A stretch of 64,000 nt of DNA from contig JAPDRO010000010.1 of NCBI GenBank assembly GCA_030247885.1, positions 868,001-932,000 on the forward strand. Direction: 5' to 3'. Under the pieces are notes generated by a model that worked only from the letters and a program-made list of their open reading frames with translations, did no database searches and was not told where the DNA came from. The position numbers were made by a program, and so were the translations under genes. This document shows, piece after piece, positions 9,956 through 50,149 of this stretch (the first letter of the stretch is position 1; every line of letters begins with the position of its first letter). This DNA is from Taxawa tesnikishii (nom. ined.). Lineage: Eukaryota > Ascomycota > Dothideomycetes > Dothideales.

Positions 9956-10125
9956 TAACGTAAACCGTGGGGTAGTTGGTCAGGTGGGGATGTTGGTCAG
10001 TTAACGCAGTTAGGCAGTTCTAAGCGCACTAAGCCTTATTGGCTAGCTTATCTCGTCCAACCTTGACTCCATCGAGGCTACTGACCAACTACCCCACCTG
10101 ACCAACTACCCCACGGTTTACGTTA
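9956..10125. mobile_element. MITE of the 17-bp-word Fot1/pogo type
   Basis: A 170-bp element bounded by TA (9956-9957 and 10124-10125) with near-perfect inverted ends. Each end starts ACGTAAACCGT and carries GGGGTAGTTGGTCA and GGGGATGTTGGTCA at a 17-bp period. The core (about 10000-10080) includes AAGCCTTATTGGCTAGCT and is related to the core of the MITE at 41174. It codes for nothing and is probably mobilised in trans by a Fot1/pogo transposase. Confidence 0.9.
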
Positions 10126-10291
10126 TAGCTGTCTCCGCAAGAGAGGTTCCCTTCTCATCCCCGTATAGCGCTTGTGGTAACCTGAGACTTGATACGAGCT
10201 GTCATGTGCAACCCAACAATGACCATCCTTACCCGTACCCGGTAAGCCTGCTGGACTTGGAACGCATGATCCCTCTTGGAGGAATGCTACG

Positions 10292-12013
10292 CTAGCTCTC
10301 TCCAAAAGACGTCTCTGCCGGCACTGGTTGGCCTGAGAGCCTTTCTTGGGCATTCGTCTTGACTATGTCACGTCTTTGACGCTTTCGAGATCGGCCGTGA
10401 GATGACCGACGCGATCCAGACACACGTGCCGTATCCAGCTGTGTGCATTGCTCGAATGTTTCGAGCCCATGCAAGTCTGCCCCGAAGGTAGACATCTTCT
10501 CCGTCGGCGTGGTACACTCAGCCCCCTGGTACCGCATGTGAAGCATGACTTGGTAAGAGCGATACGCTTCGGCTGCTTGTTTGAGACAGTCGTCTGCCGA
10601 TGACCTCTGTTTTGGGTCAAGTCGCAGCATGTGTGTCGACAGACAATCCACAAGCTCGTCCGAGTCCCAGTCTTCGACTGCCTTCACTACCCGGTTGCAC
10701 CAGTCCCTCGCACGGAAAGGTCCACGTTTCAGTTTCGGGAGGCCGTATGCGAACTCAAACACTACAAGTCCGAGCGACCATATGTCGACAGCGGAAGTAT
10801 ATCCGGATCCTTTCCAGATCTCTGGCGCCGCGTAGAGGGCCGTGCCGCAACAAGTCTGCAGTGCAGGCATGTCCTTCACCAACCCGAAGTCTGCAAGCTT
10901 GATGCTGAAGGGACTGCGAGACTCGATGAGGATGTTGGCTGGTTTGGTGTCTCTGTGTGCGAGACACTGAGAATGCAGATACCCGACGCCCTGGAGTCCC
11001 TGGTAGAGGAGTGCCACTGCCTCTTCCACAGCAATGGGCACGTTCTCATGCTGGTCCCGCAGGTTGCCTAGGGGAAGGTACTCCATCACCAGCAAGGGGT
11101 TAGGTTCTGGTCTAAAGTCCACAAATCGGACGATCCGTTGCTACACACGGTCAAAGATGCACATTCATGACCGTAGAATAATGCATACATGCGATACTCT
11201 TTTCATCGCGGCAACTTCGTTTTCCCAGCCGGGACGCATGAACTCCTTCCCGGCATACACATAGCCAGTGCTCACATCAACGACTTTGTGCACTGCTCCA
11301 AACTCGCCACGTCCCAGCTCTTCGTACAGTATATAGACAGGCCCTTGGCCAGGAGAATGTGACGTAGTAGGAGCTGCAGCGGTGCCCTGACTGTGAATGC
11401 CGAGTATGTTGAATGGAGGGAGCGCCGACGTGCTTTTCTCATGTTCTCTGCGACTTTCGAGAAATGTATTGACGTTCGCTTGATACTCTAACTGGCATTC
11501 TTCGTGCCTAGCCAACTCAATCCAGAACTTGGAGTCGGTGCCCGATAGTTGGGCTTCGATCTTCTCGAACTCTTCAAAGATGATCCACGTGAAGTGTGAT
11601 CGCTTCTGGTCTTTTGTTTGACCGTCATAGCTGACAGCCGTGCCACATCTGGAGAAGTCACGAAGTATGACACGGCCATCATCGTCAAACGTAATGCTGA
11701 AGTGCTCACCACTGATGCTACCCTGTCCTCTTCTTTGCCCTAGCAGAACATCGCATCGTCGTGGGTCAGTGCCAAATACGTACCCTTTCTGGATGTCTTC
11801 TGGTGGTTGGGTGAAAGTCAGACGGAGGCGGTAACCACAGTTTGCATCATCGTCATCCTCTTGCAGATTAGGCAAGGGCGTGCTCTCTCGGCTATCGAAG
11901 CTGTGATCAGAAGACGGTGGCGAGTAGCGACGTCTGTTGTGTGGTAGTCCAAATGCCGCCTCTGCGGTACTGCTCACTGCGGTCAATACCAGGATTGTGT
12001 GCTGACCTTCCAT
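10292..12013 (-). CDS. FHA-domain Ser/Thr kinase, Chk2/Cds1/Mek1-like
   Basis: Two exons, 12013-11189 and 11140-10292, with a 48-nt intron (11141-11188; donor GTATGC, acceptor TGTAG) that restores phase and gives about 557 residues. The FHA domain is at about residues 65-125 (GTDPRRCDVLLG, SISGEHFSI, GTAV). The kinase domain runs from about residue 235: glycine loop LGRGEFGAV, ATP lysine in YAGKEF, catalytic loop HRDTKPANIL, ADFG, APE and DIWSLG, so the catalytic residues are all visible. A basic tail (SRKRQRRD) could be a nuclear signal. FHA plus kinase is the Chk2/Rad53/Mek1 layout, which acts in DNA-damage or meiotic checkpoints and binds phosphothreonine. It is likely an extra paralogue; exact orthology is not assigned. 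Confidence 0.85.
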
Positions 12014-12474
12014 ATCCTCGTGACGTGGGGCGACACGGAAACAAACTCGGTTGGAAAGCAGCGGGTCTTCTATCTATAAATTGTGCCAGGCCCTGAGGGT
12101 GTTGGACATGCAGGATGGCATGCACTTAAGCGCCATTGCATGTCATCCGTGAACCAATAGCAGGCGCCTATGCTGGTCGGGACGTTGGAGTCACACACTC
12201 GATCGGCTCCTTGGCGCTTCTAGCGTCGGTGGGTTTCCGTGAAGCTCACCTCACACACGTGGCAAGGCTTCGTTACTGATCTTCCGCTCCGACCTGGTAG
12301 GACGATTCTCCTTAGAAATACCGCCAACACATCCGCGCTGTGAGGCGCTCGCCCTGCTTCCATATATCACATCGCCAAGCACACCATGTCTTCCATAGGA
12401 GAGATACTCGTGCAGGACTTGTGCAGCTTGGCCGCAGAAGATCTTAGAGGGAGAAGGTAGAAGCAAGCGACTCA
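12014..12474. promoter_or_regulatory. Divergent intergenic promoter region
   Basis: 461 bp between the start of the minus-strand FHA kinase and the plus-strand helical protein gene. It must hold both promoters. I do not see a clear TATA box. Confidence 0.45.
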
Positions 12475-13964
12475 ATGACCGTCTACCTGGCTTACACAGG
12501 ACCACTTCACAGCTACTTCAAACTCAGTGATCCATCGAACTTGACCGTGGAGCACGTTCAGAGGCTAAGGTAAAGGCATTTGATGTACCAGTCGACGAGG
12601 CTTTGACCATGGAATTGTCACACTGACTTGCTTCATAGGAACCTCGTTAGTGGGATCGATAAGTCCAATCCTGTAGACGCAGGTGCACTGGATGAGAGAT
12701 TGAGGTAAGCGTCCGAATCTGATACGTTTGCGTTTGCAATCAGCCCATTGTACCTGCACTAAGACGTTCCCTTGCCCAGACACATCAACTCAGCGCTTGT
12801 CACCCGTGCCAGTTCCCGGTCCACCTCCGCAACGACGCCGGATCCGGAAGATCACAAAGAAGATTACCTGTGTGAGGAGAAAGAAGCGCATGATGCGTTG
12901 ACGCGAGATGGTGGCGGGCCTTCTCATCCGATCGGTTTAGGATTTGACATCCTGGATGAGCCTGGACAATATGCGGAGATAATATCATACTGGCGGGGCA
13001 ACAGCGGCAGAGGATGGGACATCATTAAAGAACAACTCGCGTGTTGGAGAAAGTTCCGAGATTATCAAGAGAGAGAGTTCGTAGAAATCGCACGGCACCG
13101 GAAAGGTTCGCCAATTACATTCGGCATGTCCGTACCTACCGGCTTGAAAGAGGCTTGCAGGGCGAGATCGAGTTGTACGAGGATCGCACCCGACAGACCC
13201 AGCTGGACGACTGGAGAGAATATCAATACTACCAGTGTCGGACAGCCGACCGTTTCAGGAAAGTTATGGAACATGCTGAGACAAGAATCGAACAGTCTCA
13301 GGAGAAGCTACAGGCAGCCATAAATGCAGGGCAGATGGCAGAGTCGATAAAGTGGATCGAGAAGGCGGATGTCACATACTGGCGAGCTAGAAGAGGCACC
13401 GCAAGGAGGAAGCTGGAAGAGCACAGTATCCTGCTGAAGTGGATTGCACAGCAAATCCCCACAATGGCTTCAGGGCATAGATCTCCGAGTCGGGGATCAG
13501 AAGCTCCTGCCCGCGATGATGATGAGGAAGCCAAAGCAGTTCTGCGGAATCGTCCCAGTGTACGTCAGCCGGTAACACCTGTCAGCCCCTACCCGGATCC
13601 TGCACAAACTCTAGGAAAGAGAAAACGATCCGTGGGAGAATTGTCGCCGTGCTCAGCGAAGCCATCAAAAGCTCGGAAGTCTTGTGCGCCGATAGATATG
13701 GATGGAAGAAAAGAGCGCGGCACTATTGCAGGTGTCCTCACACAATCTACGACACCTGTCAAGGAACATGATGAATGCTCCGCGATAAGATCCGAGCGGC
13801 ACGGCGGTTCTGTTCGCTTGAGAAGAAGCCGGAGGATAGCGCAGCTCAAGAGCGAAGCTCAGTCCTCGGAGTCAACACCAACAGCTCTTCCATCCGTCCG
13901 ACCGCCAAGGATGCAGAAAGTCTCGACAAGGAAAAGGCGTCCCCGCAACCTAGCTACCAGCTAA
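12475..13964 (+). CDS. Helical fungal protein, function unknown, three exons
   Basis: ATG at 12475. Introns at 12570-12638 (GTAAAG...CATAG) and 12705-12779 (GTAAGC...CCCAG) join to give a start reading MTVYLAYTGPLHSYF. The third exon holds a long, charged, mainly helical region (YQEREFVEIARHRK, then RLERGLQGEIELYEDRTRQ) and a basic tail (RLRRSRRIAQ, TRKRRPRNLA) suggesting nuclear location. Near 13105 the frame shifts: one more A in an AAA run would join HRK to RFANYIRHV. The splice structure argues for a real gene. The style, with Trp/Arg/Tyr-rich helices, is common among fungal accessory proteins, but I do not know a function. Confidence 0.65.
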
Positions 13965-14153
13965 GCTGACCCTTTCAGTACCGTCGAGCCTACAGCCTGC
14001 AGTCCTGCGGCACGTGGCTCCACACCTGAGAGCGAAGGGCGCGTGCAATCGACTTGACCACTCTCCTGTTGTCCGATTTTGTTTCGATTGCACACGGTAA
14101 GCTGTCAAGCCTATGTCGCTTGGAGTTGGTGACTATATTCCTCGTAAGTTAAC
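13965..14153. other. Short intergenic
   Basis: 3' flank of the helical-protein gene; nothing else is visible. Confidence 0.4.
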
Positions 14154-14485
14154 TAACGTCTTTCGCGGGATGGTGGAACGGGTGAGATAGTCAACCACTA
14201 GAACGCACCACTTCCACCTTCTACGTTGCCACTACCCACAACGGATATTTCTACACCAAATAGACCACTTTATGTCGAAGCTGATATGAAGAGTGCAATC
14301 TTAGTTGTAAAGAAGAAGGAGTATACCTCTGTCTGCAGGGCTGCTAGCGCAGTCAACATCCCTTACCCAACTCTACGCGACCGTATCGCTGGATGCACTT
14401 CACGCGCAATAGCGCATGGATCGGAGCAGATCATTCCAAACGCGGAGAAGAAGTCCTGAGTCCGATGGATTGCACATCCTACGTG

Positions 14486-16337
14486 TAACGTAAACCGCGG
14501 GGTAATGGATCAGGTGGGGTAATGGATCACTAAAACGCGACCCTCCGATCTACTAATATTACTACTACCCACTATGAGTGCTTCTATGCCTAACCAGCGA
14601 GCGTATACTGAAGCTAATATCCAGAATGCTATCTCGGCCCTAAAAAAGAAGGAATACACATCAATCCGCAAGGCTGCTAGCGCGTTTAACGTTCCAAGTA
14701 CAACGCTTCGAAACCGCATGGTTGGACATACTTCGCGCGCTATAGCGCACGAAACAGAGCAGATCCTATCAGTCGCGGAAGAGAAGACATTAGTCCGATG
14801 GATTACACGTCTCACACGTACCGGCTTTCCTGCTTCGCCTACGTTGGTTGTGCAAATGGCTGAGGAAATCCAACGCGGACGCGTGCAGCTATCGAAGACT
14901 TCACGGCCATTACCTCGACCGATCGGCGAGAAGTGGCTCGATCGCTTCAAGACTCGTCATCCGGAGATTGCAAGCATCTGGACACGTCAGATAGATAGCG
15001 CACGCTTCAATGCGACAAGCTATGAAGCCGTAAAGAGGTGGTTTGACGCGGTGACGGAGCTGTTTGTGCAACACAACTATCCTCCGAAGCGCGTCTACAA
15101 CATGGACGAGTCCGGCTTTGCTGTCGGAGCGAGTCAGTCATCGAGAGCTCTAGTAAATGTACGTGAAGCGTCAAGCTGGAAGCAGATCGGAAGCCGAGGG
15201 GAGTGGATAACGGCGATCGAGTGTGTGAGCGCTGCCAGAGAAGCTGTGCCGCCCTTGATCATCTTCAAGGCCAAACATACTAATACAGCATGGGTACCTG
15301 CACATACGCCTCCAGACTGGAGGTTCTCGACTAGCAGCAGCGGCTGGACGTCCGATAGTTACGGCTACGAGTGGCTGACCACTATTTTCGGGCCTTCGAC
15401 ACGGCCGGAGGACCCTACAGCACGGCGACTACCGATCATGGACGGCCATAGTAGCCATATGACAGCGAAAGTGATCGCCTTCTGCATGCAGAACACAATC
15501 GGCTTGCTCGTCCTACCACCTCGTTGTCCGCACATAATCCAGCCGCTCGATGTTGGGGTGTTTGCACCGCTAAAGCGCGCGCTAGCTTCGGAGACCGATG
15601 CCGCTTTACGAGTCGACTCTGGCCGCATATCGCGCGTAGAATGGACAGAAATGTACATCCGAGCAAGGGATAGGGCGCTTACTAGACACAACATCCTTGC
15701 TGGATGGAGAGGCGCCGGCCTTCAACCTCTGAGCCCTGTGACGGTACTTGACAAGCTACCTACAAAGCCAACTCCGGTAGACGTACAACCTCATACACCT
15801 CCACAACAACCTGATCTGGACCTTTCGCTACTTAATAGCTCTCCGCCAAATGGGACCGAGCTACGCGAAGCAAACGTAGCGCTCAACTCGGCGATCAAAG
15901 CTGCGCAGGACTTGCCTTCTCCGGTAAAGCGGTATACAGAGCGGATGACTCGCGCTTTTGAGTCGACGCATAGCGAGCTCGTTACTTTGCGCAAGCAGGT
16001 AGAAGAACAGGAGAAGCTTCTCAACATGCGAAAGGCTCGAAAGAAGGAAAGCGAGTCGCATTAAAGGGAAAGTTCGTATTTAGCACGGAGGAAGTACTCG
16101 AGATAGCCAAGACGGCGGAAGCGGATTCGGCAACGAAAAAGCCGCGCGGACGGCCACGTAAGCGTCCAATCGAAGAGGTAGTCGAGGAGGAGGAAGACGA
16201 AGAACTAGAGAACATTTGTAGCGACTCAGATTCTGATTGCATCGTTGTTGCGGTTCGTAATTAGTGGTAGAAGCTAGGAGGTTCGCAGTTGAGTGATCCA
16301 TTACCCCACCTGATCCATTACCCCGCGGTTTGCGTTA
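14486..16337 (+). mobile_element. Fot1/pogo element A, complete ends
   Basis: 1852 bp including the TA duplication at 14486-14487 and 16336-16337. The inverted ends read ACGTAAACCGC (right: ACGCAAACCGC), then GGGGTAATGGATCA twice at a 17-bp period. It sits inside the older element described at 14154-17092. The ends match with one visible mismatch, suggesting a fairly young insertion. Confidence 0.92.
14574..16263 (+). pseudogene. Fot1/pogo (DD35D) transposase of element A
   Basis: Cut-and-paste transposase: psq-type HTH (residues about 10-50), CENP-B-type HTH (about 60-130), then a DDE_1 domain with D in YNMDESGFAVGA, D in IMDGHSSH and D in IQPLDVGVF. The continuous frame stops at 16064. In another phase (to 16263) the usual tail follows: VALKGKF-like segment, AT-hook PRGRPRKRP, acidic stretch and SDSDSDC. 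A single missing G near 16046 (AAGGAAAG for AAGGGAAAG) explains the break. The DDE core looks intact, so the catalytic part could still be made. Confidence 0.85.
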
Positions 16338-17137: not shown

Positions 17138-18989
17138 TAACGTAGTCCGCGGGGATGTGGGTCACGCGGGGTAGTGGGTCACTACAACGCGAACCTCCAA
17201 TCTTCTACCGTTACTACCAACTACCATGAGTACTTCTATACCTAGTAAACAGGCTTATACGGAAGAGGATATCCAGAAGGCCATTTCTGCTGTTAAAAAC
17301 AACGAATACCCATCAGTTCGTAAGGCTGCCCTCGCATTCAAGGTCCCGAACACAACGCTACAGCATCGCATGTCTGGACGAACTTCACGCGCTATAGCGC
17401 ACCAAGATGAGCAGCTCCTTTCTATACCGGAAGAAAAGACGTTAGTACGATGGATTACACGTCTTACGCGTACCGGATTCCCGCTTCGCCTGCGTTGGCT
17501 CTACAAATGGCTGAGGAGATACGACGCGGACGCGTCCAGCTTTCCAAGGCTTCCGCCCTAACTCTTCGACCAGTTGGCGAGCATTGGCTCGATCGCTTCA
17601 AGGCTCGTCATCCTGAGATCGCAGGCATCTGGACGCGTCAGATTGATAGCGCACGGTTCAGAGCGACGAGCTACGAGAACGCAAAGAAGTGGTTTGACGC
17701 GGTAACGGAGATGTGGATACAGAACCAATATGCGCCGGAGCACGTTTACAACATGGACGAGTCCGGCTTCGCAGTCGGAGCGAGTCAGTCATCAAGAGCA
17801 TTGGTCAACATACGTGAGGACAGTAGTTGGAAGCAGATCATTAGCAGGCAAGAATGGATAACTGCAATCGAGTGCGTAAGCGCTGCCGGCCTGGCTGTTC
17901 CACCCTTGTTGATCTACAAGGCGAAACACACCAACACTGCGTGGATACCTGCCCAAACACCCAAGGACTGGAGGTTCTCAACTAGCAATAGCGGCTGGAC
18001 GTCCGATAGCCACGGTTACGAGTGGCTGACTACCGTGTTCGAGCCTTTGACACGGCCGGAGGACCCTACAACTCGGAGACTACTGATCATGGACGGCCAC
18101 AGCAGCCATATTACTGGCAAGGTAATTGCGTTCTATATGCAGAATGCAATTGACTTAATGATACTACTACCTTATTGTTCGCATATCCTTCAACCGCTTG
18201 ATGTTAGCGTCTTTGCGCCGCTAAAGCGTACGCTAGCCTCGGAGACTAATGCTACTTTGCGTGTCGATTCTGGTCGCATATCGCGCGTAGAATGGACTAA
18301 GATGTGCATCCGCGCAAGGGATAGGGCGCTTACTACTCGCAACATTCTCGCTGGGTGGCGCGGTACTGGTTTAGTACCGCTAAGCCCTATATCCGTGCTT
18401 GAAAAGCTGCCTTCTAGGACGACTCCAGCCGCTTCACCACCGCATACACCACCCCAGCAACTCGATCTAGACCTGTCGCTACTCTGTAGCTCACCGCCAG
18501 ACGGCACTGAACTACGTGAAGCAAACGCGCTACTCAATTCCACGATAAAGGCTATCCAGGACGTTCCATCTCCGGCGAAGCGGTATACGGAGCGTATGAC
18601 TCGCGCTTTTGAATCGACGCACAGCGAGCTTATCACTTTACGCAAGCAGGTAGAAGAACAGGAGAGGCTTCTCAATACTCGAAAGGCCCGAACAAAGGGC
18701 AAGCGAGTTGCATTGAAAGGGAAGTTCGTGTTTAGTACGCAAGAAGTACTCGAGATAGCGAAGGTAGCAGAAGCGGAGACAGCAAAGAAAAAGACTCGTG
18801 GACGGCCACGTAAGTGCAAGGCGAAAGAAATAACTGAGGAGGAGGAAGACGAGCTATTTGAGAACCTACCCAGCGACTCTGATTCTGATTGTATTATGGT
18901 TGCAATGCGCAGATAATTAATGGAGTTGAAAGGGTAGAGATTCGTTGACCCACTACCCCGCGTGACCCACATCCCCGCGGACTACGTTA
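17138..18989 (+). mobile_element. Fot1/pogo element B, complete ends
   Basis: 1852 bp bounded by TA. The ends read ACGTAGTCCGC, then GGGGATGTGGGTCA and GGGGTAGTGGGTCA at a 17-bp period, and are inverted matches. The same family with the same length recurs at 57797-59648 in the opposite orientation. Confidence 0.92.
17226..18916 (+). pseudogene. Fot1/pogo transposase of element B
   Basis: ATG at 17226. The frame shifts near 17485, where CCC replaces the CCCC seen in the sister copy, and then continues to 18916 through the DDE_1 domain (YNMDESGFAVGA, IMDGHSSH, LQPLDVSVF), AT-hook KTRGRPRK and SDSDSDC tail. Compared with relatives, the region after the second Asp has several changes of the G-to-A or C-to-T kind (LLPYCSH for LPPHCSH; DVSVF for DVGVF; KRTLASETNATLR for KRALASETDAALR), consistent with mild point-mutation decay. 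The AT-hook is in frame here, unlike in three other copies. Confidence 0.85.
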
Positions 18990-22033: not shown

Positions 22034-24370
22034 ATGCAGGCTATCTGGAACGCCTATCCGGGCGCTAACGCGGGCCGGAACACCGACCATCAGTCACTAC
22101 CAACGGCACCTGTAATAGATCTACCCAGTGCAAGCGAGCTTCTTACGTACGAGGCTGCACACAAGATTCTCATACGCAAGCAGCATGGCTCGGCCATTAG
22201 GAGTCTCCCGTACCATCTCGAGCATTATCATAACTTCAGTGCGACATCAAGGGCGGCAATCGTCGCACAGCACTGCAACGAGAAGCACGGCTGGAGATCA
22301 AGTACCAAAGCGCGACGTCAATGGACCGACGTAAAGGTCCAGACTTTCTTCCCGACGAGCGGGTTGCAACGATACTTTACCGTCGATGTCTCTCTGCAGC
22401 AACGCGAGCAGCCAGCCGAGCAGCCATCCGAGCAAGTGACTTGTTCCAAGGATACGCAAGGCTGTAGCGATACGCAGAGTGTTGTACAGGAGTACCGAGA
22501 GGCTGCTCGTCGGCGAGAGCGCGAGCTAGAAACTGCCGACGACAAGGTTGCGAAGACGGATCGTACCGGCTGGTTCAACCGGACAGGTTGACCAGAACAC
22601 CTTGCACGCCGCAATCTTGCCGACTTGTCGCGCGCCAGTCGGCTGCCGGACCGCGAGGAGCGACTGTTGCAGCAAGCTCTACGCGTTGTCGACCTTCTGA
22701 TTGAACGAAGCGTTGCAGGCCTGGCAACTTTAGCGATTGAAACAAGGAGATGGCTTAAGAGCGTCAAGCGCAAGGAAATCGAAAAGCGTCCCCTTGGCAG
22801 GCTCCAGAACCCCGAAAGTCAGCAACGATATGCGGGCTACTTCAGGCGCTTCACCTGCTACGTCCTTCGTATGCTCCTAGCTAATGAAGCTTCATCTGAT
22901 GCTGCCGAAGCTTTGTCCTCGAGTGAACAGGACGAGGGAAGCGAGAGCGATGACAGTGCAAGCAGCTCTGGCGTTCCCGTTCGGAGGAAAGTCTGGCGAG
23001 ACTGTATGCGAGATGCGTGCGAGTTGTTCCTTGGCGCGACAGCCAGAAAGATCTGGCTCGGGAGCTCTAGGCTGCCCTGGAGCTAGAAGATGAACAAAGT
23101 CAGGCAGGGAAGATGCTAGAGCTGTTCTCATCCTTCATCCTCCAAGCCATCGACGATCAGCCGTTCTCAAGTGGGTTGATACGCTTTCTCGCTGTGCTCG
23201 GCATCGACGAACAGACGAACCGCCTGCGGACTGCCGATCAGTTCGCCTTCATGTTAGCCGGAGTCGTCTACTGCGTCCGAGTGCTCGCTGCGGAGATCAT
23301 GCTTCTATCGGCGCATCGCGGCAGCCAAGGGATCGCCCAGCGCGAAGAGTTCCTGCGAATGCGGAAGAAGTACCTGACAGTCAGCAAGTGACTATCGCCC
23401 CAGACTGACACGGCTGAAGAACCTCAGGACACTTCAATGCCAGATGGTACTGCTAACTGCTACCCAACCACCGTTGTTGGAGCCCGAGCTTGCGCAGAGT
23501 ATGTTAGTCCAGAATGCTCACTACATCCGAGCCAGCACAGTACGACGAAACATCAGATACTGCGTGCAACAGTGTGCCAGAGGGAAGGTCGTCGAGACGG
23601 CCGAACAGATCTGCAAGAGGCGCAGGCGAGATGTAGGGGGACGTAGGATAGTGGTTTACTGCCGTCGAAAGGAAGACTGTGAAGTGTTGGCAGACCGGCT
23701 TAGGTGCGAATACTACCATGCAGACCTAAGCGTCAGCGACCGCGGCGAGAAGCTAGCAGGATGGAAGGAAGATGGCGGCTTCGTCATCGCAACTTCAGCC
23801 TTAGGTACGGGTGTTGACTATCCGGGGATTGTTTTCGTACTGTACGCGGGGATACCGAATGATATGATCGACTACGTGCAGGAATCTGGAAGAGCTGGCC
23901 GTACGGGTGAGACAGCAGACTCGATGATAGTGTTCGAGGAGGGTTGTCTTGACGCGAAGAGCGAAGTTTTGCTAAGCGCCGACGAATGGGGCATGGTCGA
24001 GTTCCTCCGGACGCGAGGTTGCCGGAGTGAGGTGATGAGCAGCTTCCTTGACGGGTCGAGGAGGGAATGTGGGGAGGAAGACGCGCAGTGCGACAGATGC
24101 GGAGAGGGAATGAGCGAGTGGCAGGAATGGCAGCGGCGGGAGCAGGCAGAGCGGAGCACGATTACAGAGTTGCTTGACGGGTTCGCAGGCGTGTGCTCGG
24201 CTTGCTGGCTTAGGTACGGAAGTGAGCAGGGACAGTCGCACTCGTTATACGACTGCGAGCGAGGAAGGGCGTTGAGCCAATCTGGATGTGACGGTTTTCG
24301 CAAGGGAGTATGGTACGCGCGCAACAGTCACGCTGCACAAAATGCGGATTCAGCCAAAAGCTCTGCATGA
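22034..24370 (+). pseudogene. Second telomere-linked-type RecQ helicase, internally deleted
   Basis: The N-terminal part (22034-22591) matches helicase 1 in layout (RSLPYHLEHYHN zinc-finger-like segment lacking its first Cys pair; FFPTSGLQRYFTV). A TGA replaces a Trp codon near 22588 in the same phase. Near 23035 the frame changes at a TT run, and an in-frame TAG follows near 23076. After 23391 the sequence jumps directly to motif III (MVLLTATQPPL), so Walker A and the DECH box are lost. The remaining C-terminus has RIVVYCRRKEDCEVL, ATSALGTGVDYPG, the motif VI segment QESGRAGRTGE and the RecQ zinc-binding cysteines (REC, CDRC). It cannot encode an active helicase. Confidence 0.85.
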
Positions 24371-24669: not shown

Positions 24670-26520
24670 TAACGTAAACCGTGGGGAAGCGAACCAGGTG
24701 GGGAAGCGAACCACCTAAACGCGATTCCTCTACGTTCTACCGTTTCCACCACTAGACATGGGTACTTCTATACCTGGTAAACAAGCCTATACGGAAGCTG
24801 ATATCCAGAACGCAACATTCGCAGTCAAAAATGAAGAATATCCGTCGATTCGCAAGGCTGCCCTCGCATTCCACATCCCCTATCCAAGTCTACGCGCTCG
24901 TATGTCTGGACGCAATTCACGCGCCGTAGCGCACCACAACGAGCAGCTTCTTTCAACACCGGAAGAAAAGACATTAGCACGATGGGTTACACGTTTTACG
25001 CGTACCGGATTCCCCGCTTCGCCTGCGTTGGCTATACAAATGGCCAAGGAGATACGACGCAGACGCGTCCAGCTTTCTACGGCTTCCGCACTAACTCTCA
25101 AACCAATTGGCGAGAAGTGACTCGATTGTTTCAAAACTCGTCATCCTGAGATTGCCGGCATCTAGACACGTCAGATCGACACTGCGCGGTTTAAAGAGAC
25201 GAGCTACGAGAATGTAAAGAGGTGGTTTGACGCGGTAACGGAGATGTGGATACAGAACCAATACGCTCCGGAGCACGCTTACAACATGGACGAGTCCGGC
25301 TTCGCTGTCGGAGCGAGTCAGTCTTCAAGAGCATTGGTCAACATACGTGAGGATAGTAGTTGGAAGGTGATTGGAAGCAGACAAGAGTGGATAACTGCAA
25401 TAGAGTACGTAAGCGCTTCCAGCGTGGCTGTTCCACCGTTGTTGATTTTTAAAGCCAAACACACGAACACTGCGTGGATACCTGCTCGAACACCCAAGGA
25501 CTGGAGGTTCTCAACTAGCAATAGCGGCTGGACATCCGACAGTCACGGTTACGAGTGGCTAACTACCGTGTTCGAGCCTTTGACACGGCCGGAGGACCCT
25601 GCAAGCCGGAGACTACTAATCATGGACGGCCACAGTAGCTATGTTACTGCGAATGTGATTGCGTTCTGTATGCGGAACACAATCGACTTGATGATCCTAC
25701 CACCTCATTGTTCGCATATCCTCCAACCGCTCGATGTTGGCGTGTTTGCGCCGCTGAAGCGCGCGCTGGCTTCCGAAACCGACGCCGCTCTTCGACTCGA
25801 TTCAAGCCGTATCTCACATGCGGAATGGGTTCAGATGTATGTTCGTGCAGGGGCAAAGGCACTTACAACTAACAATATCCTTGCTGGATGGCGCGGTGCT
25901 GGTTTGGTACCGCTAAGCCCAATATCCGTGCTCGAAAAGCTGCCTTCTAGGACGACTCCAGCCGCTTCACTACCTTACACACCGCCACCACAACCCGATC
26001 TGGACTTATCGCTACTTCATAGCTCATCGCCAGATGGCACTGAACTACGCGAAGCAAACGTGCTACTGAGCTCCACGATTAAGGCCGCCCACGATCCTCT
26101 ATCCCCGGCGAAGCCGTATATAGAGCGGATGACTCGCTTTGCAGAACTCACGAACAACGAGAACATAACTCTGCGGAAGCAGGTCAAAAAACAGGAGGAG
26201 CTTCTCAACACACGAAAGGCTCGAGCAAAAGGCAAGCGAGTCGAATTGAAAGGACGGTTCGTGTTTAGTACCCATGAGGTGCGTGAGATAGCGAAGGCAG
26301 CGGAAGCGGATTTGTCAAACAAAAAGACATGTAAGCGGCCGCGCAAGCGCCCAATCGAGGTGACGCTCGAGAGCGATGGAGAAGAAGAGGCGGAAGTTGT
26401 CGTAAGCGACTCAGATTCTGATCGTGCTGTTGTTGCAGCGCGTGGATGCCAATTGAAGCTTGAAAGGTCACAGTAGGTGTTTCGCTTCCCAGGCTTTTTC
26501 GCTTCCCCCGGATTACGTGA
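24670..26520 (+). mobile_element. Fot1/pogo element C with unequal ends
   Basis: Left end: TA, ACGTAAACCGT, then GGGGAAGCGAACCA twice at a 17-bp period. The right end (about 26476-26520) has the same layout but different bases (GGGAAGCGAAAC, then GGGGGAAGCGAAAAA; terminal ACGTGA instead of ACGTTA). The right end has therefore diverged or been exchanged, and the right TA is not intact. Confidence 0.8.
24758..26476 (+). pseudogene. Fot1/pogo transposase of element C
   Basis: ATG at 24758. HTH part in frame to 25120, where a Trp codon reads TGA; a second Trp codon reads TAG near 25165. The frame then stays open to 26476 through DDE_1 (YNMDESGFAVGA, IMDGHSSYVTANV with Tyr for the usual His, LQPLDVGVF) and an AT-hook-like CKRPRKRP, ending DSDSDRAVV. 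Both stops are TGG changes, that is G:C to A:T, as in repeat-induced point mutation. There are no frameshifts in the open parts. Confidence 0.85.
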
Positions 26521-34936: not shown

Positions 34937-36400
34937 TAACGTGATTCCCCACTTGATGACCGATCCCACATGATGACCGATTTTGCGCATTACCAACAAC
35001 CAACTTTATCCTACTCCACAATGGACCACAACACTCGTATAGCTTGCGCAATAGATGATTTAGAGTCGCAAGAGCGTATAAACTATGCCGTGACTGCGCG
35101 AAAGTGGAACATCGACCGTAGAACACTAGCAAAGCGCTACAAAGGCGAAACAGGCACAGTCCAAGAAGCCATCTCTTACACGCGCCGGAAGCTCACAGAC
35201 GCGCAAGAAGAGGTGCTTGTTGCGCATGCTAACAGACTTACGGATCGTGGCCTTCCACCGACACCGCAGATGCTTAAGAATATTGCTGAACAGATTGCAA
35301 AAACTGCGCTTGGAAAGAACTGGGTCACCCGCTTCTACCAGCGTCACCGCGATCGCCTCACTAGCATCTACCTACGAACAATCGGTCACAAGCGCAAGGT
35401 AGCAGATAACTCGCACTACTTCCAAGACTTCTTTGACCTAGTCAGTTTTCTCCCACCTGCGTTATAGTAGCGTGCAGCCTGCTTCTAGTATGCGCGTCTA
35501 ACGCTCTTAACCTAGCTTCACAAAAGATGGAGCAGTACGACGTCACGCCATCAAACACGTACAACTTTGACGAGAAAGGCTTCTTGATAGGCCTCTCTAG
35601 GTCTACAAAAAGGATTGTCTCATGTGAGCACGGTTCTTCAGTCCCGCTCGGGTTGAGCGAGCTCGGCAGCAAGCAGCCGACGAAGCGGAGGCGGAGCGCC
35701 AACGCAAGCAAGCTATACAAGATCGGAAGGTTGAAGCAGCTAGAGCACGAGCAGACAAAGCGCGTGAGAGGGAGGAAAGAAAGGCCGCGCGTGCTGCGGC
35801 GCGGGAGGCAGCCAAAGCAGAGCGAGAACGTGAAAAGGCCGAACGAGCGGCAAAGAAAGTAGCGCAACAAGCGAGTAAGCTTGCGCAAACTACTAAGCAG
35901 CCTCGGGCTGCTACCATAGAAGAAGGAGAAGTGATAGTGGTAAGGGCAGCGAAAGTAGACGCTACTAAGCCTAGGAAGAGGGGTCTCGAAGAGGAAGGGG
36001 TAGGGGTGCCCCGGAAGAGGCTTCACGCGCAGCCTTCCACACAGCGCACCCAGCGAGAAGCAAGCGATTCAGGTGCCATTCTAGGTTCTACGGAGTCTAA
36101 GCTTCAGCGTGCTGTTACTTCTAGAGGGAGGGTTTCTAGTCCTACTTTGCGCCAGCGAAAGGCAGGTTGGGTACCGGTTTCGCGGAGGTTACGCTCCGGG
36201 CGTAGCACACAGCCGCCCTCACGATATTTTTAAGTTAGTTAGTAGCCAGAATAGCTCTGTTACTACTCTTCTTAAAGTACATAAAACATCAGGTTAATGC
36301 ATCTAGTGGTTGAATTATTAGAGCTGTGCTTTCATGTTTAGCTAGGATGTGCAAAATCGGTCATCATGTGGGATCGGTCATCAAGTGGGGAATCACGTTA
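34937..36400 (+). mobile_element. Pogo-like element G1 with internal deletion
   Basis: 1464 bp from TA 34937-34938 to TA 36399-36400. The inverted ends read ACGTGATTCCCCAC with TTGATGACCGAT and ATGATGACCGAT at a 17-bp period. It keeps the 5' coding part and the 3' coding tail, but the catalytic core between them is missing. The sister copy at 47213 has the same deletion point, so the deleted form itself seems to have spread. Confidence 0.88.
35021..36233 (+). pseudogene. Deleted pogo-like transposase of G1
   Basis: ATG at 35021. psq-type HTH and CENP-B-type HTH (about residues 1-150; TARKWNIDRRTLAKRYKG, GKNWVTRFYQRH). A 75-nt intron lies at 35441-35515 (GTCAGT...CCTAG). Exon 2 begins LHK-MEQYDVTPSNTYNFDEK with the first catalytic Asp; an AAAA run is one A shorter than in the 47-kb copy and shifts the frame. 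After about 35625 the sequence jumps to the tail: an Ala/Arg/Glu-rich coiled coil (EREEKAERAAKK-like), then VPRKRLHAQPSTQRTQ, ending RSTQPPSRYF at 36233. The second and third catalytic Asp are absent, so it cannot catalyse transposition. Confidence 0.8.
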
Positions 36401-41173: not shown

Positions 41174-41344
41174 TAACGTAGTTGCCGGGGTAGTTGATCA
41201 GCCTGGGTAGTTGATCAGTTAACCGTTATAGGCAGTTTCAAGCGTGATAGAGCTTATTGGCTAGCTCGTTCCAGGATAAACTAAACCTAATCAAGGCTAC
41301 TGATCAACTACCCAGGCTGATCAACTACCCCGGCAACTACGTTA
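41174..41344. mobile_element. Second MITE of the 17-bp-word type
   Basis: 171 bp with TA at 41174-41175 and 41343-41344 and near-perfect inverted ends: ACGTAGTTGCC, then GGGGTAGTTGATCA and TGGGTAGTTGATCA at a 17-bp period. The core has GCTTATTGGCTAGCT and TCAAGGCTAC, as in the MITE at 9956. Its word matches the 5' end of element D at 46.7 kb, a possible source of transposase. Confidence 0.9.
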
Positions 41345-44874: not shown

Positions 44875-44908
44875 TAACGTGAACCGCGGGGTAATGGATC
44901 AGGTGGGG
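44875..44908. mobile_element. 34-bp stub of a Fot1 element A-type end
   Basis: TA, ACGTGAACCGC and GGGGTAATGGATCA, then GGTGGGG, which stops exactly where the next element's TA begins. In a full A-type end the next bases would be TAATGGATCA, so element D appears to have used the TA inside the second word as its target. Confidence 0.75.
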
Positions 44909-46743
44909 TAACGTAATCCGCGGGGTAGTGAATCACCAAATCTCTACCCTTTAGACTTCATTAATCATCTACGCATTGCAACAACAATACAATCAGAATC
45001 TGAGTTGCTGGACACGCTCTCAAGTTCTTCATCTTCCCTATCCTCGAGTACCTCTTCGATTAGACGCTTGCGTGGCCGTCCACAAGTCTTTTCTTCGCTG
45101 TCTCCGCTTCCGCTGCCCTCGCTATTTCGAGCACTTCCTGCGTGCTAAACACGAACCGTCCTTTCAATTCAACTCGCTTGCCTTTGTTTCGAGCCTTCCG
45201 TGTATTAAGAAGCTTCTCCTGCTCTGCCAACTGTTTGCGCATTGTAACGTTCTCGCTTTGCGTCAGTTCAAAAGCGCGAGTCATCCGCTCCGCGTATCGC
45301 TTCGCCGGGGATGGAAGATCCTGGGCGGCCCTAATCGTGGAATTAAGTAGCGCATTCGCTTCTCGTAGTTCGGTGCCATCGGGCGGAGAGCTGTCAAGTA
45401 GCGATAAGTCCAGATCGGGTTGTTGTGGCGGCGTATGCGGTGGTGAAGCGCCTGGAGTCGTCCTCGTAGGCAGCTTATCAAGCACAGATATTGGGCTTAG
45501 CGGTACCAAACCAGCACCGCGCCATCCACCGAGGATATTGTTAGCTGTAAGTGCCTTTGCCCTCGCGCGGATATACGTCTCAACCCATTCTACGCGTGAG
45601 ATGCGGCCTGAGTCGAGTCGAAGAGCGGCGTCGGTTTCGGAAGCCAGCGCGCGCTTAAGCGGCGCAAACACGCCAACGTCAAGCGGCTGAAGGATATGCG
45701 AACAATGAGGTGGTAAGATCATCAAGTCAATTGCGTTCCGCATGCAGAATACAATCACGTTTGCAGTAATATGGCTACTATGGCCGTCCATGATTAGCAA
45801 TCTCTGGGTCGTAGGGTCCTCCGGCTTAGTCAAAGGCTCGAAAACAGTAGTAAGCCATTCATAACAGTGGCTATCGGAAGTCCAGCCGCTGTTACTAGTT
45901 GAGAACCTCCAGTCCTTAGGTGTTCGAGCAGGTATCCACGCAGTGTTGGTATATTTGGCCTTGAAAATCAACAACGGTGGAACAGCTACGCCGGCAGCGC
46001 TTACGCACTCGACTGCAGTTATCCACTCTTGTCTACTTCCGATCTGCTTCCAACTACTGTCCTCACGTATGTTGACTAATGCTCTCGACGATTGACTCGC
46101 TCCGACTGCGAAGCCGGACTCGTCCATGTTGTAGGCGTGCTCCGGAGCGTATTGGTTTTCTATCCACATCTCCGTCACCGCGTCGAACCACCTCTTTACG
46201 CCCTCGTAACTCGTCGCTTTGAACCGCGCAGTGTCAATCTGACGTGTCCAGATGCCGGCGATCTCAGGATGACGAGCATTGAAGCGTTCTAGCCAATGAT
46301 TGCCAATTAGTCGAGGGGTTGATGTAGAAGCCTTGGAAAGCTGGACGCGACCGCGTCGTATCTCCTCAGCCATTTGTACAGCCAACGCAGGCGACGCAGG
46401 GTATCCAGTGCGTGTGAGACGTGTAATCCATCGTGCTAATGTCCTTTCTTCCGCGTTTGAGAGGATCTGCTCTGTTTCGTGCGCAGTAGCGCGCGAAGTT
46501 CGTCCAGACATGCGACTATGTAGCGTGGCGAAGGGGACGTTGAATGCGAGGGCAGCTTTGCGAATTGACGGGTACTCTTTGTTTTTTACTGCAGATAGTG
46601 CCTTTTGAATATCAGCTTCCGTATAGGCTGGTTTGTTAGGCGTGGAAGTGCTCATAGTGGGTGGTGGAAGTAGTAGAAGGTAGAAAGGTCACGTTTCGGT
46701 GATCAACTACCCCGGCTGATCAACTTCCCCGGAAATTACGTTA
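44909..46743 (-). mobile_element. Fot1/pogo element D with unlike ends
   Basis: TA at 44909-44910 and 46742-46743. The right (5' of the gene) end carries GGGGAAGTTGATCA and GGGGTAGTTGATCA at a 17-bp period. The left (3') end carries only one word, GGGGTAGTGAATCA, after ACGTAATCCGC and resembles the B family (and B's following TCTCTACCCTTT). The element is thus a hybrid of two families. Its two flanks do not match each other either: a Fot1 stub on the left, a dioxygenase exon on the right. Confidence 0.85.
45060..46655 (-). CDS. Fot1/pogo transposase of element D
   Basis: An uninterrupted 531-residue frame. psq-type HTH (about 10-50), CENP-B-type HTH (about 60-135), DDE_1 with Asp at about 178 (YNMDESGF), 290 (LIMDGHSSH) and 326 (LQPLDVGVF), spacing DD35D. 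Of the Fot1 genes here it is among the best preserved and may supply transposase. The end reads AKKRLVDGHASV because an AAAA run is one A shorter than in elements A and B; in the neighbouring phase the AT-hook tail (RGRPRKR-like) and SDSDSDC follow. It may therefore be a real truncated product, a sequence error, or slippage. Confidence 0.88.
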   Translation of the reverse strand: MSTSTPNKPAYTEADIQKALSAVKNKEYPSIRKAALAFNVPFATLHSRMSGRTSRATAHETEQILSNAEERTLARWITRLTRTGYPASPALAVQMAEEIRRGRVQLSKASTSTPRLIGNHWLERFNARHPEIAGIWTRQIDTARFKATSYEGVKRWFDAVTEMWIENQYAPEHAYNMDESGFAVGASQSSRALVNIREDSSWKQIGSRQEWITAVECVSAAGVAVPPLLIFKAKYTNTAWIPARTPKDWRFSTSNSGWTSDSHCYEWLTTVFEPLTKPEDPTTQRLLIMDGHSSHITANVIVFCMRNAIDLMILPPHCSHILQPLDVGVFAPLKRALASETDAALRLDSGRISRVEWVETYIRARAKALTANNILGGWRGAGLVPLSPISVLDKLPTRTTPGASPPHTPPQQPDLDLSLLDSSPPDGTELREANALLNSTIRAAQDLPSPAKRYAERMTRAFELTQSENVTMRKQLAEQEKLLNTRKARNKGKRVELKGRFVFSTQEVLEIARAAEAETAKKRLVDGHASV

Positions 46744-47212
46744 CGGATGACGGTTCAACTTCTTGAGAAGCTTGCCAACTGGGCCGTCATGCGGGATGGG
46801 ATATGGTACAGGAAGGATGGCTTTGAACCAAAAGTCCCCAGCATCGTCGCTCGTCAAGATTGCTCTGCCGTCCGGTCCTGGTCTGTCGGCATGTTGCACG
46901 TCATAGAATCCTTTCGAATCGGTCTCCCAGATATCGATTTCTGCCCCGCGTATAGGTCTTCCCTCGATGTCCTTGACAGTGCAGGTTACAAGCAGCAGCT
47001 GGCCGTCCGGATCTTGAGATATCGAAGCGCCATGAACGCTGTGCTTAGCCTCGTGTGTATGGAAGGGTCCAAAAACGGTGCCTTCGGTGCTGTGTTGCGG
47101 CTTCGGATGGTCGATTGAATCGACTAATAGGGATAGACCCAGGACGTCCGACAGCAAAATGAATTCCTACATGGTATTCAGTCACGGCATTCTAATGGCT
47201 GGTAACTCCACG
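46744..47212 (-). pseudogene. Relic exon of a hydroxyquinol/catechol 1,2-dioxygenase
   Basis: Intradiol ring-cleavage dioxygenase segment: EFILLSDVLGLSLLVDSI, GTVFGPFHTHEA, GRPIRGAEIDIWETDSKGFYDVQ, DDAGDFWFKAILPVPYPIPHDGPVG, KLLKKLNRHP. A 3' splice site (ATGTAG) precedes EFILL at about 47170. The gene is cut in the codon after HP, where family members continue with Tyr-Arg-Pro; that TAC supplied the TA target of element D. On the other side it is cut by element G2 at 47213. The N-terminal exons and the C-terminal half with the iron ligands are not adjacent. Intact enzymes open hydroxyquinol rings in aromatic catabolism. Confidence 0.85.
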
Positions 47213-48376
47213 TAACGAACTTCCCCACTTGATGCACGTTCCCACTTGATGCACGCTTTTCCTCACCAAACTCTATCACCATTACTCCACCCTGCAATGA
47301 ACAACAACGCTCGGATCGAGGCTGCACTGGTAGATTTAGATTCGCAAGAGCGTGTGAACTATGCTGCAACCGCACAAAAGTGGAGAGTCGATCGGAGTAC
47401 ACTATCAAGGCGCCATCAAGGCCAAACAGGCACAATCCAGGAAGCCGTCTCTTACACGCGCCGGAAGCTCACAGATGCGCAAGAAGAGGTGCTTACTGCG
47501 CATCTGAATAGACTTACGGACCGTGGCCTTCCACCGACACCGCAGATGCTTAAGAATATTGCTGAACAGATTGCAAAAACTGCGCTTGGAAAGAACTGGG
47601 TCACGCGCTTCTACCAGCGACACCGCGATCGCCTTACCAGCATGTACCTACGAGTGATCGATCACAAGCGCAAGGTAGCAGATAACTCGCACTACTTCCA
47701 AGACTTCTTTGACCTAGTCAGTTTTCTCCCACCTGCGTTATAGTAGCGTGCAGCCTGCTTCTAGTATGCGCGTCTAACGCTCTTAACCTAGCTTCACAAA
47801 AAGATGGAGCAGTACGACGTCACGCCATCAAACACGTACAACTTTGACGAGAAAGGCTTCTTGATAGGCCTCTCTAGGTCTACAAAAGGATTGTCTCATG
47901 TGAGCACGGTTCTTCAGTCCCGCTCGGGTTGAGCGAGCTCGCCGGCAAGCAGCTAACGAAGCGGAGGCGGAGTGCCAACGCAAGCAAGCTATACAAGATC
48001 GGAGGGTTGAAGCAGCTAGAGTACGGGTAGAGAAAGCGCGTGAGAAGGAAGAAAGGAAGGCTGCGCGTGTTATAGCGCGCGAGGCAGCAAAAGTAGAGCG
48101 GGATCGTAAAAAGGCTGAACGAGCGGCGAGGAAAGCAGCGCAACAAGCTAGCAAGCATGCGCAAACTACTAAGCAGCCTCGGGCTACTAGTACAGAGGAA
48201 GAAGAAGTGATAGTGGTAAGGGCAACGAAAGTAGACGCTGCTGGGCCTAAGAAGAGGGGTCCTGAAGAGGAGGAGGTAGAGGTCCCCCAGAAGAGGCTTC
48301 ACGCACAGCCTTCCACACAACGCACTCAGCAAGACACAAGCGATTTGGGTGATGTTCTAGGTTCTTCAGCGTGTCT
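47213..48376 (+). mobile_element. Pogo-like element G2, 5' portion fused to element E
   Basis: Left end at TA 47213-47214: ACGAACTTCCCCAC with CTTGATGCACG words at a 17-bp period, the inverted match of the stub ending at 4356. It contains the HTH gene start (ATG 47297), the same 75-nt intron (47717-47791) as G1, the first catalytic Asp segment and the coiled-coil tail, with the core deleted at the same point as G1. The sequence leaves the family at about 48376, inside the tail coding region, and changes directly into the 3' end of Fot1 element E. Confidence 0.82.
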
Positions 48377-50149
48377 TGCGCACCGGAACAATGATACAGT
48401 CAGAATCTGAGTCGCTATGTATGTTTTCAGGCACTTCATCTTCCTCATCCTCTAGCACTTCTTCAATTGTACGCTTGCGTGGTCGTCCGCGTGGTTTTTA
48501 GTCGATGACTCCGCTTCGGCTGCCTTGGCTATCTCGAGCACGTCCTGCGTGCTAAACACGAACCTGCCCTTCAATGCGACCCGCTTTCCCTTCTTCCGGA
48601 CCTTTCGCGCATTGAGAAGCTTCTCTTGTTCTTGTAACTGCTTGCGCAAAGTAACGTTCTCGCTATGCGTCACTTCAAAAGCGCGAGTCATCCGCTCCGC
48701 ATATCGCTTCGCCGGGGATGGAGCCTCCTGGATCGCCTTGATTGCAGAGTTGAACAGTGCGTTTGCTTCGCGTAGCTCGGTGCCGTCTGGAGGAGAGCTA
48801 TCGAGTAGCGAAAGGTCTAGATCGAGTTGTTGCGGAGGTGTATGAGGTTGCAAATCCGCTGCAGTCGATTCCGCAGGCAGCTTGTTAAGCACCGTTATAG
48901 GGCTTAGCGGCACTAGACCAGCAGCTCTCCATCCGCTTAGGATATTCCTCGTTGTAACAGCCTTAGCTCTCGCGCGTATGTACATCTCCGTCCACTCTAC
49001 GCGCGATATGCGGCCAGAGTCGACTCGTAAAGCCGCGTCGGTCTCCGAAGCTAGCGCGCGCTTGAGCGGTGCAAACACGCCAACATCAAGCGGCTGGAGT
49101 ATATGCGAACAGTGAGGCGGCAGGATGAGCAAGTCGATCGCATTCTCCATGCAGAAGGCGATCACTTTCGCTGTCATATGGCTGCTATGGCCGTCCATGA
49201 TTAGCATTCTTCGTGTCGTAGGGTCGTCAGGCCGCGTCAAGGGCTCGAACACCGTGGTCAGCCATTGAAAACCATGACTATCGGACGTCCAACCGCTGCT
49301 GCTAGTCGAGAACCTCCAGTCTGGAGGCGTATGTGAGGGTACCCAGGCGGTGTTGGTGTGTTTGGCCTTGAAGATGATCAAGGGAGGCACGGTAGCCCCA
49401 GCAGCACTCACACACTCGATTGCAGTTATCCACTCCTGACGGCCTGCAACTACCTTCCAGCTAGATGTCTCGCGTACATTGACTAGAGCTCTTGATGTTT
49501 GGCTCGCTCCGACAGCGAAGCCGGACTCGTCCATGTTGTATACGCGCTCCGGAGGATAGTTATGTTCTACAAAAAGCTCCGTCACCGCGTCAAACCACCT
49601 CTTTACGACGTCATGGCTTGTCGCATTGAAGCGCGCGCTCTCAATCTGACGAGTCCAGATGCCTGCGATCTCAGGATGGCGAGTCTTGAAGCGGTCAAGC
49701 CACTTCTCACCAATTGGCCGAGGAGATGGTAGTGGTTTCTTCGATAGCTGCACGCGTGCGCGTCGGATTTCCTCGGCCATTTGCACAACCAACGCGGGCG
49801 AAGCAGGAAAGCCGGTGCGTGTAAGACGTGTAATCCATCCGACTAACGTCTTCTCTTCCGCGTTCGAAAGGATTTGATCCGATTCATGCGCTATAGCGCG
49901 TGAAGGTCGTCCGGCCATGCGATGGTGTATAGTAGTAGGAGGGATATTAAATGCGCGGGCAGCGTCTCGAACTGATTTGTAGTCTTTGTTTTTGTAGGCA
50001 GAAATACACTTCTGGATATCAGATTCGGTATAAACTTGCTTATCTAGTATAGAAGCACTCATTGTTGGTAGTGGTAGGTTTAGAAGTTGAGAAGACGAGT
50101 TTCAGTGTCTCGCTTCCCCACCTGTCTCGCTTCCCCGCGGTTTACGTTA
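48377..50149 (-). mobile_element. Fot1/pogo element E, 3' end replaced
   Basis: The right end (50101-50149) reads ACGTAAACCGC with GGGGAAGCGAGACA twice at a 17-bp period and a terminal TA. The left end has no inverted repeat: the sequence breaks within a few codons of the transposase stop, where element G2 begins. The whole 47213-50149 block therefore has one end from each of two families. Confidence 0.82.
48452..50062 (-). CDS. Fot1/pogo transposase of element E
   Basis: An uninterrupted 536-residue frame with HTH pair, DDE_1 domain (VYNMDESGFAVGA, LIMDGHSSHM, LQPLDVGVF) and coiled C-terminal segment. As in element D, the AT-hook is out of phase because an AAAAA run is one A short (TKNHADDHASV instead of TKKPRGRPRKR). 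The neighbouring phase reads through the acidic SDSDSDC tail to the breakpoint. The catalytic part appears whole, but the element lacks one of its own ends. Confidence 0.85.
   Translation of the reverse strand: MSASILDKQVYTESDIQKCISAYKNKDYKSVRDAARAFNIPPTTIHHRMAGRPSRAIAHESDQILSNAEEKTLVGWITRLTRTGFPASPALVVQMAEEIRRARVQLSKKPLPSPRPIGEKWLDRFKTRHPEIAGIWTRQIESARFNATSHDVVKRWFDAVTELFVEHNYPPERVYNMDESGFAVGASQTSRALVNVRETSSWKVVAGRQEWITAIECVSAAGATVPPLIIFKAKHTNTAWVPSHTPPDWRFSTSSSGWTSDSHGFQWLTTVFEPLTRPDDPTTRRMLIMDGHSSHMTAKVIAFCMENAIDLLILPPHCSHILQPLDVGVFAPLKRALASETDAALRVDSGRISRVEWTEMYIRARAKAVTTRNILSGWRAAGLVPLSPITVLNKLPAESTAADLQPHTPPQQLDLDLSLLDSSPPDGTELREANALFNSAIKAIQEAPSPAKRYAERMTRAFEVTHSENVTLRKQLQEQEKLLNARKVRKKGKRVALKGRFVFSTQDVLEIAKAAEAESSTKNHADDHASVQLKKC

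Follow-up and report, generated by a model that had tools for sequence, protein, structure and literature searches.

The window analysed here, a stretch of 64,000 nucleotides of Taxawa tesnikishii (nom. ined.) (C2:868001-932000, on contig C2 of a genome of 29.4 Mb in 34 contigs), harbours several Fot1/pogo transposons whose ends repeat a short word that changes from family to family, and raises the question of whether each word is matched to the helix-turn-helix (HTH) units of the cognate transposase. In the families sampled, two residues of the recognition helix of the first HTH (HTH1) covary with two bases of the word. The architecture of the ends, the agreement between the two copies of the word and this covariation are observed; judging from sequence, each copy very probably corresponds to one transposase footprint, in which HTH1 would set the specificity of the family.

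Double repeats at the transposon ends

All of the coordinates proposed by the initial annotation (11/11) were found to carry a Fot1/pogo end in which the word occurs twice in direct orientation, those at 46743, 50149 and 4356 being minus-strand ends, and further partner ends were located at 10125, 16337, 18989, 36400, 41344, 44875 and 59648. The elements examined are bounded by TA and have terminal inverted repeats of about 43–50 bp, each end containing a pair of internal direct repeats about 17 bp long. Counting inward from the outer TA (bases 1–2), ends of the main (GGGG) group have the anchor at bases 14–17, the word at bases 18–27, a second anchor at bases 31–34 and a second word at bases 35–44. 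With at most one mismatch allowed, a 34-place pattern describing GGGG-type ends matched the genome 190 times (94 forward and 96 reverse) and its reversed control 2 times; the end architecture is far beyond chance.

The DDE_1 domain had 150 scored matches and 195 candidates in the genome. As a side observation, 123 of the 150 scored matches sit on contig C2 (1,163,921 bp), which holds about 4% of the genome bases and is a transposon-dense and perhaps accessory chromosome. Ends and proteins were compared in the window, in 40 stretches around DDE_1 matches (C2, 21–573 kb), in 8 C2 loci and in 3 small loci, a sample covering part of the DDE_1 matches of C2, the window and a few others rather than the whole genome. 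At first pass, 40 of 77 DDE_1 matches were without a TAACG-type pair of ends (5 of these 40 being loci missing from the map). A search for inverted repeats in the flanks revealed extra end types, opening with TACCGTG, TAGAAG or TACAGG and having the same kind of double repeat at lag 17, so that the opening of TA followed by ACG(T/A), formerly ascribed to all Fot1-type ends, does not apply to these families. Several of the 77 matches had no recognised end pair even after this search. Taking as a family each distinct combination of 5' word and helix residues, 32 families were obtained.

A constant period of 17 bp had also been proposed. The period is 17 bp in 29/32 families and 18 bp in the other three (3/32), all of the CACCGAGCGG/CTCGCGG clade; spacing is thus clade-specific (17 or 18 bp) and constant within clades, not universal. 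In L039 a degenerate copy with one inserted base gives 18 bp, the family being tallied among those with 17. Among 634 sites starting with TAACG, drawn from the window and 48 loci whose overlaps cause some sites to be counted twice, 153 had a 14-base self-match of at least 11, at lag 17 in 112 and at lag 18 in 32 of the 153. The idea that the two copies agree and change in concert was borne out in the 15 main-group families (a set including L020, a fragment, and L019, degenerate): 9.27 of 10 bases agree within an end versus 6.50 between families, a value that none of 20,000 permutations reached.

Covariation of the end word with the first recognition helix

DDE_1 and HTH_Tnp_Tc5 domains were found in all three long proteins of the window (3/3) and HTH_psq in two (2/3), the protein of the open reading frame (ORF) 48452-50062 having no psq match at E 0.001; two short N-terminal fragments matched Tc5 only. 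The first HTH is of psq type and the second (HTH2) of Tc5/CENP-B type. A profile of 22 DNA-binding segments matched 1hlv_A (CENP-B) with E 7.4e-5 over profile positions 10–111, spanning both HTH units; a single 535-aa protein searched against PDB gave no match. In a predicted model (mean predicted local distance difference test score 78) the third helix comprises residues 33–40. The recognition segment of HTH1 reads (V/I)P-x1-x2-T-L-x3-x4-R, and this helix begins at x1 and holds x1–x4.

Words had been expected to covary with the cognate HTH, and this stood for x4 with base 22 and for x1 with base 25. In the 15 main-group families mutual information reached 1.24 of 1.24 bits for x4–base 22 and 1.39 of 1.52 for x1–base 25, with x4 fully and x1 nearly determining its base in both copies. 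After correction for the four helix residues times the variable word positions, p was 0.0019 for x4–22 and 0.0019 for x1–25 in copy 1, and 0.0003 and 0.0056, respectively, in copy 2. In a scan of all 81 variable columns of the DNA-binding region (648 tests in copy 1, 567 in copy 2) the same pairs had the smallest p in both copies, with min-p-corrected values of 0.0022 and 0.0022 (copy 1) and of 0.0037 and <0.0001 (copy 2), and ranked first and second by z in copy 1. With any one family removed, p rose to at most 0.002 (x4–22) and 0.0007 (x1–25).

Both parts of the HTH had been supposed to be involved. HTH1 carries the main signal, whereas HTH2 is far less variable in the main group and has one associated column (94). 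Mean column entropy was 0.92 bits in HTH1, 0.39 in HTH2 and 2.18 over x1–x4, with x2, x1, x4 and x3 ranking 1, 2, 3 and 6 by variability; the GGGG anchor, like HTH2, is little variable in the main group. In the 72 of 120 homologues that passed a motif filter, which itself required T/S, L/I and R, x4 ranked third and x1 fifth by entropy among 153 columns; under a filter without the T/L/R demand, T was kept in 28/29, L in 25/29 and R in 29/29. Named transposase relatives among the 120 matches listed were Cladosporium, Hortaea, Cryomyces and Aureobasidium proteins.

The same two pairs recur when all 32 families are compared in one register from TA. Asp or Glu at x4 goes with C22 (5/5), Arg or Lys with G22 (12/12), Ser with T22 (3/3) and Asn, His, Ala or Gln with G22 (11/12); Arg at x1 goes with C25 (14/14; 13/14 in copy 2), Tyr with C25 (6/7), Asn, Gln or Phe with T25 (7/7) and Pro or Lys with A25 (2/2). 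For the TTGATG and TACCGTG families a one-base shift of the register was tried and rejected, the unshifted register from TA yielding identical x4–22 and x1–25 pairs. Under within-group permutation the two pairs stayed the top two of four residues by 14 positions, and leave-one-out prediction from the exact residue was correct for 29/30 at base 22 (22 by majority guess) and for 26/29 at base 25 (20 by majority guess).

Single elements were scored where both ends and all four residues were readable (58 elements, one mis-paired 3' end, that of L017, included). Base 22 fits in 57/58 and base 25 in 55/56 of the 5' ends, and in 51/58 and 50/56, respectively, of the 3' ends, where the misfits are due to foreign end words, ends one base short, L014 and the mis-pairing in L017. 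Once the first families had been seen, the residue at x1 was moreover predicted in writing for 11 places before translation; four were readable and all held (4/4), namely Tyr in two new families (window 24670 and C2:402908), Tyr at C2:617475 and Asn at C2:1055973. A weaker prediction, that TAGTGGAACA would not be paired with Tyr or Asn at x1, held as well (Ser was found). No HTH lay beside the end at C9:99596 or C2:67520.

Within the TACCGTG and TTGATG families, copy 1 was seen to read ATGCACG with Ser at x3 and ATGCGC with Thr, a pattern present in the 5' ends of L038, L035e, L020d and L029e, L032e, L010e. A third rule at base 24, limited to these two groups and with L022 as an exception, is possible.

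Several points weigh against x1 and x4 as the specifying residues. They were first picked out by eye, and the expected covariation fails a max-z correction over all columns (0.19 and 0.42 in copy 1; 0.20 and 0.37 in copy 2), the null of which is heavy-tailed (95% point 7.2 and 7.5), in our reading because of columns with one deviant row. In copy 2 the ranking by z puts the two pairs at third and fourth, after HTH2 column 94, whose association with bases 18 and 21 in this copy (min-p corrected 0.036) is not accounted for by this reading, nor is that of linker column 53 with base 23 in copy 1 (p 0.0015, min-p corrected 0.10). Ser at x1 is split between T and A at base 25, and L014 (TACAGGGG ends) breaks both rules. 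L022 shares the x1–x4 residues RSSR with L035e, L038 and L020d and has a word that differs at bases 20, 21 and 24. Since x3–base 24 is weak (Arg–A 7/12) and x2 is without a clear partner, the whole word is not decoded. Two of the four held predictions (L049, L050) concern further copies of families already known (L004, L035). The top fold match of the predicted model, 1hlv, has modest scores (Foldseek E 0.075). Lastly, the control for descent given below concerns the main group (group A), and Arg at x1 and Arg or Lys at x4 occur only outside it. As an observation apart, no association outside the recognition helix is stronger than those of columns 53 and 94.

Alternative explanations and the proposed reading of the ends

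Descent was controlled for in 14 main-group families (L020 being left out of tree and Mantel tests). Distances over word bases 21–26 correlated with those over x1–x4 (Mantel r=0.45, 7/20,000), and equally after removal of catalytic-domain distance (partial r=0.45, 3/20,000) or of catalytic-domain distance and the rest of HTH1 (r=0.45, 6/20,000). Word distance and catalytic-domain distance are unrelated (r=-0.07). On the catalytic tree, Fitch changes numbered 5 for base 22, 8 for x4, 6 for base 25 and 7 for x1, against shuffled-label means of 4.74, 8.31, 6.66 and 7.72, so that words and helix residues of the main group carry no phylogenetic signal on this tree. The main-group covariation is independent of descent.

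These values also bear on an exchange of cassettes, in which the 5' end and the start of the gene would move as a block and thus keep HTH1 linked to the ends even if x1 and x4 read no DNA. Chimeric elements with a foreign end are known (L004/L006, L024_3407, L045_3379 and window 44875), and the catalytic domains do not track the words, both in keeping with such exchange. Yet the rest of HTH1 is weakly tied to the word (r=0.19; 979/20,000, and 767/20,000 minus x1–x4), x1–x4 keep their correlation once that rest is removed, and a 5' cassette would leave unchanged the 3' ends, which follow both rules in the proportions given above. The pairs also fit the chemistry of Arg with guanine, Asn or Gln with adenine and acidic residues with cytosine. 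We therefore regard cassette exchange as improbable.

Shared descent, whereby ends and helices would agree only through joint inheritance in each lineage, is in our view highly improbable. It accounts for the word and helix common to the copies of a family, and outside group A it may still apply. Within the main group it is largely contradicted by the lack of relation between word and catalytic distances, whose removal leaves the helix association unchanged, and by pairs that recur far apart on the tree: AAGCGAACCA with Y..RA in the element at window 24670 (both copies) and in L004 (second copy, the first being AAGCGAGCCA), and Ser at x4 with T22 in L035 and in the element at window 46743. That the double repeat only reflects slippage or gene conversion within the ends and is no binding site, as conversion-like mosaics (L004/L005/L006) might suggest, is scarcely credible, given that the register of the copies stays fixed even where families have unrelated words, that the helix correlation is present in both copies, and that earlier papers treat such repeats, in the text available, as transposase binding sites (PMC3441728, PMC2836289).

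We thus favour the reading of each copy as a transposase footprint. The end would be a tandem pair of putative binding sites, each copy offering one monomer a CENP-B-like footprint some 17 bp long. The conserved anchor (bases 14–17) is probably read by HTH2, and the variable word (bases 21–27) would be read by the recognition helix of HTH1. There, x4 may specify the top-strand base 22 (Arg/Lys or a small polar residue for G, Asp/Glu for C, Ser for T) and x1 base 25, most likely via the bottom strand (Arg/Tyr for C, Asn/Gln/Phe for T, Pro/Lys for A). Contacts of Arg with G, of acidic residues with C and of Asn or Gln with A are standard, and with x4 on the top and x1 on the bottom strand the residue–base pairs would fit this chemistry. 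Since the helix has to match two copies at each of the two ends, words would change in concert and each family would be specific for its own ends, possibly with the benefit that cross-mobilisation between families is avoided.

We lean, with reserve, towards a transferable HTH1 code (x4–22, x1–25) by which two end positions could be predicted from the protein, or the two residues from the end, even between groups that share only about 24–34% identity in their DNA-binding regions. If this is true, one genome keeps dozens of families orthogonal by means of two residue–base pairs, and records, in natural sequences, how the target of a CENP-B-type domain can change while its scaffold stays the same. 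Co-evolution of transposases and ends is often assumed, and contacts are shown by single structures; 32 natural enzyme–site pairs on one scaffold are evidence of a different kind. Close pairs, for example S-T-R-N with TAATGGATCA and S-T-W-N with TAATGGAACA, make specificity directly testable, the words offer a way to assign miniature inverted-repeat transposable elements (MITEs) to their drivers, and the relation gives leads on how pogo-derived CENP-B-type proteins might change targets.

Elements of the window and known systems

The features of the window are collected in Table 1.

Table 1. Fot1/pogo-type elements, ends and recognition-helix codons in the window (positions in the window)
Feature	Positions	Strand	End word	Helix (x1–x4), frame and remarks
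Solitary TTGATGCACG-type end	4313..4356	-		
MITE, non-autonomous, 170 bp	9956..10125	.	TAGTTGGTCA / ATGTTGGTCA, period 17	
Fot1/pogo element	14486..16337	+	TAATGGATCA in both copies, both ends	S,T,R,N; ORF 14574-16064
Recognition-helix codons x1..x4 (S-T-T-L-R-N), 14486 element	14697..14714	+		Counted from ORF; alignment
Fot1/pogo element	17138..18989	+	ATGTGGGTCA/TAGTGGGTCA	N,T,Q,H at ~17349-17366; frame broken downstream
Fot1/pogo 5' end	24670..24713	+	AAGCGAACCA x2	Element extends to ~26520, 3' end degenerate
Recognition-helix codons Y-P-S-L-R-A, 24670 element	24881..24898	+		x1=Y predicted from word before translation
TTGATGACCGAT-type element	34937..36400	+		R,R,A,K at ~35117-35134; 1,464 bp; ends 98% complementary
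MITE, non-autonomous, 171 bp	41174..41344	.	TAGTTGATCA x2, both ends	
Fot1/pogo element, chimeric ends	44875..46743	-	AAGTTGATCA/TAGTTGATCA (5' end, at 46743)	F,A,H,S, fitted by the 5' end
TTGATGCACG-type 5' end	47213..47256	+		R,S,S,R at ~47393-47410
5' end, element with ORF 48452-50062	50106..50149	-	AAGCGAGACA x2	P,T,H,H at ~49922-49939
Fot1/pogo element	57797..59648	-	ATGTGGGTCA/TAGTGGGTCA	N,T,Q,H at ~59420-59437; 535-aa transposase frame, ORF 57953-59560

The element at 34937 is shorter than others of the TTGATGACCGAT type (about 2,360 bp), and no HTH reading frame was found in the 650 bases adjoining the solitary end at 4313..4356. MITEs of 169–171 bp were seen at both window positions, in L023 (3415-3584) and in L041 (4258-4426). 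The words of the window MITEs and of the L023 MITE resemble those of full-length families, so that drivers could be assigned by word; the 46743 family is the likely driver of the MITE at 41174..41344, the word being identical. Beside the word of the L041 MITE, AAGCGAAACA, no readable helix was seen.

Mosaics with ends of different families were observed at window 44875-46743, where the 3' end (44875) bears the foreign word TAATGGATCA, and at L004/L006 759-2611, L024 3407-5255, L045 3379-5231, L034 1635-3469, L042 1358-3508 and L046 5930-8064; the end matching the helix is the 5' end, except in L046 (3'). The idea that such elements prove mobilisation with a single foreign end was rejected on the flanks of L004, L005 and L006. 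L004 and L006 share an identical sequence of 1,853 bp, their left flanks being alike at 300/300 positions and their right flanks at 83/300, and the first 30 right-flank bases of L006 are those of L005; the shared body and left flank on one side and the shared right flank on the other therefore indicate recombination or duplication.

Elsewhere in the window, an OrsD-domain frame (2076-3563) adjoins a frame without a Pfam match (971-2110) on the minus strand (971-3563), and a Helicase_C frame (23444-24370) lies downstream of an unmatched frame (22034-22591) on the plus strand (22034-24370). These frames possibly belong to a helicase-type mobile or telomere-linked element.

As to known systems, the CENP-B box is 17 bp long. 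CENP-B on its box (1hlv) shares the bipartite HTH and is the best match by profile and, with modest scores, by fold. Unlike CENP-B, a host protein with one box, the elements described here carry a tandem pair of sites at each end, and their first recognition helix is diversified.

Closer in kind are the fungal Fot1/pogo elements (Trem elements, Aft1, Tan1, Pot2 and Fot1), in which internal 17-bp direct repeats are described (PMC2836289) as they are found here. Trem-type elements have HTH_psq, CENPB and DDE domains; the ends of TremA and TremB (about 1.85 kb, inverted repeats of 43–49 bp) hold two 17-bp direct repeats, suggested as the target of the HTH and CENPB domains, and differences in the HTH were thought to be possibly related to the ends (PMC2836289). 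For the DAHLIAE elements of Verticillium such repeats were likewise taken as transposase binding sites (PMC3441728). Both the double 17-bp repeat and its proposed binding by the transposase are thus already in print (PMC2836289, PMC3441728, PMC4188875). The available text of PMC2836289 ties no residue to a base, and that of PMC3441728 describes no residue-to-base relation, whereas we report two residue–base pairs, descent-controlled in one group, together with an 18-bp clade. Residue-to-base covariation was not found among the open-licence PMC matches listed (including PMC7325037), as far as their accessible text goes, subscription papers lying outside this scope.

In another branch of the superfamily, mariner Mos1 and Tc3 (PMC4505599; 1u78) also place a bipartite HTH on inverted repeats, and in Mos1 the end is contacted by HTH1 at G22 and G33, through Arg-48 and Lys-44 (PMC4505599). 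The available text of that paper describes no tandem 17-bp double site, unlike the ends reported here, and the Mos1 and Tc3 contacts come from one structure, whereas in the Fot1/pogo elements of T. tesnikishii the relation between helix and end appears as covariation over families.

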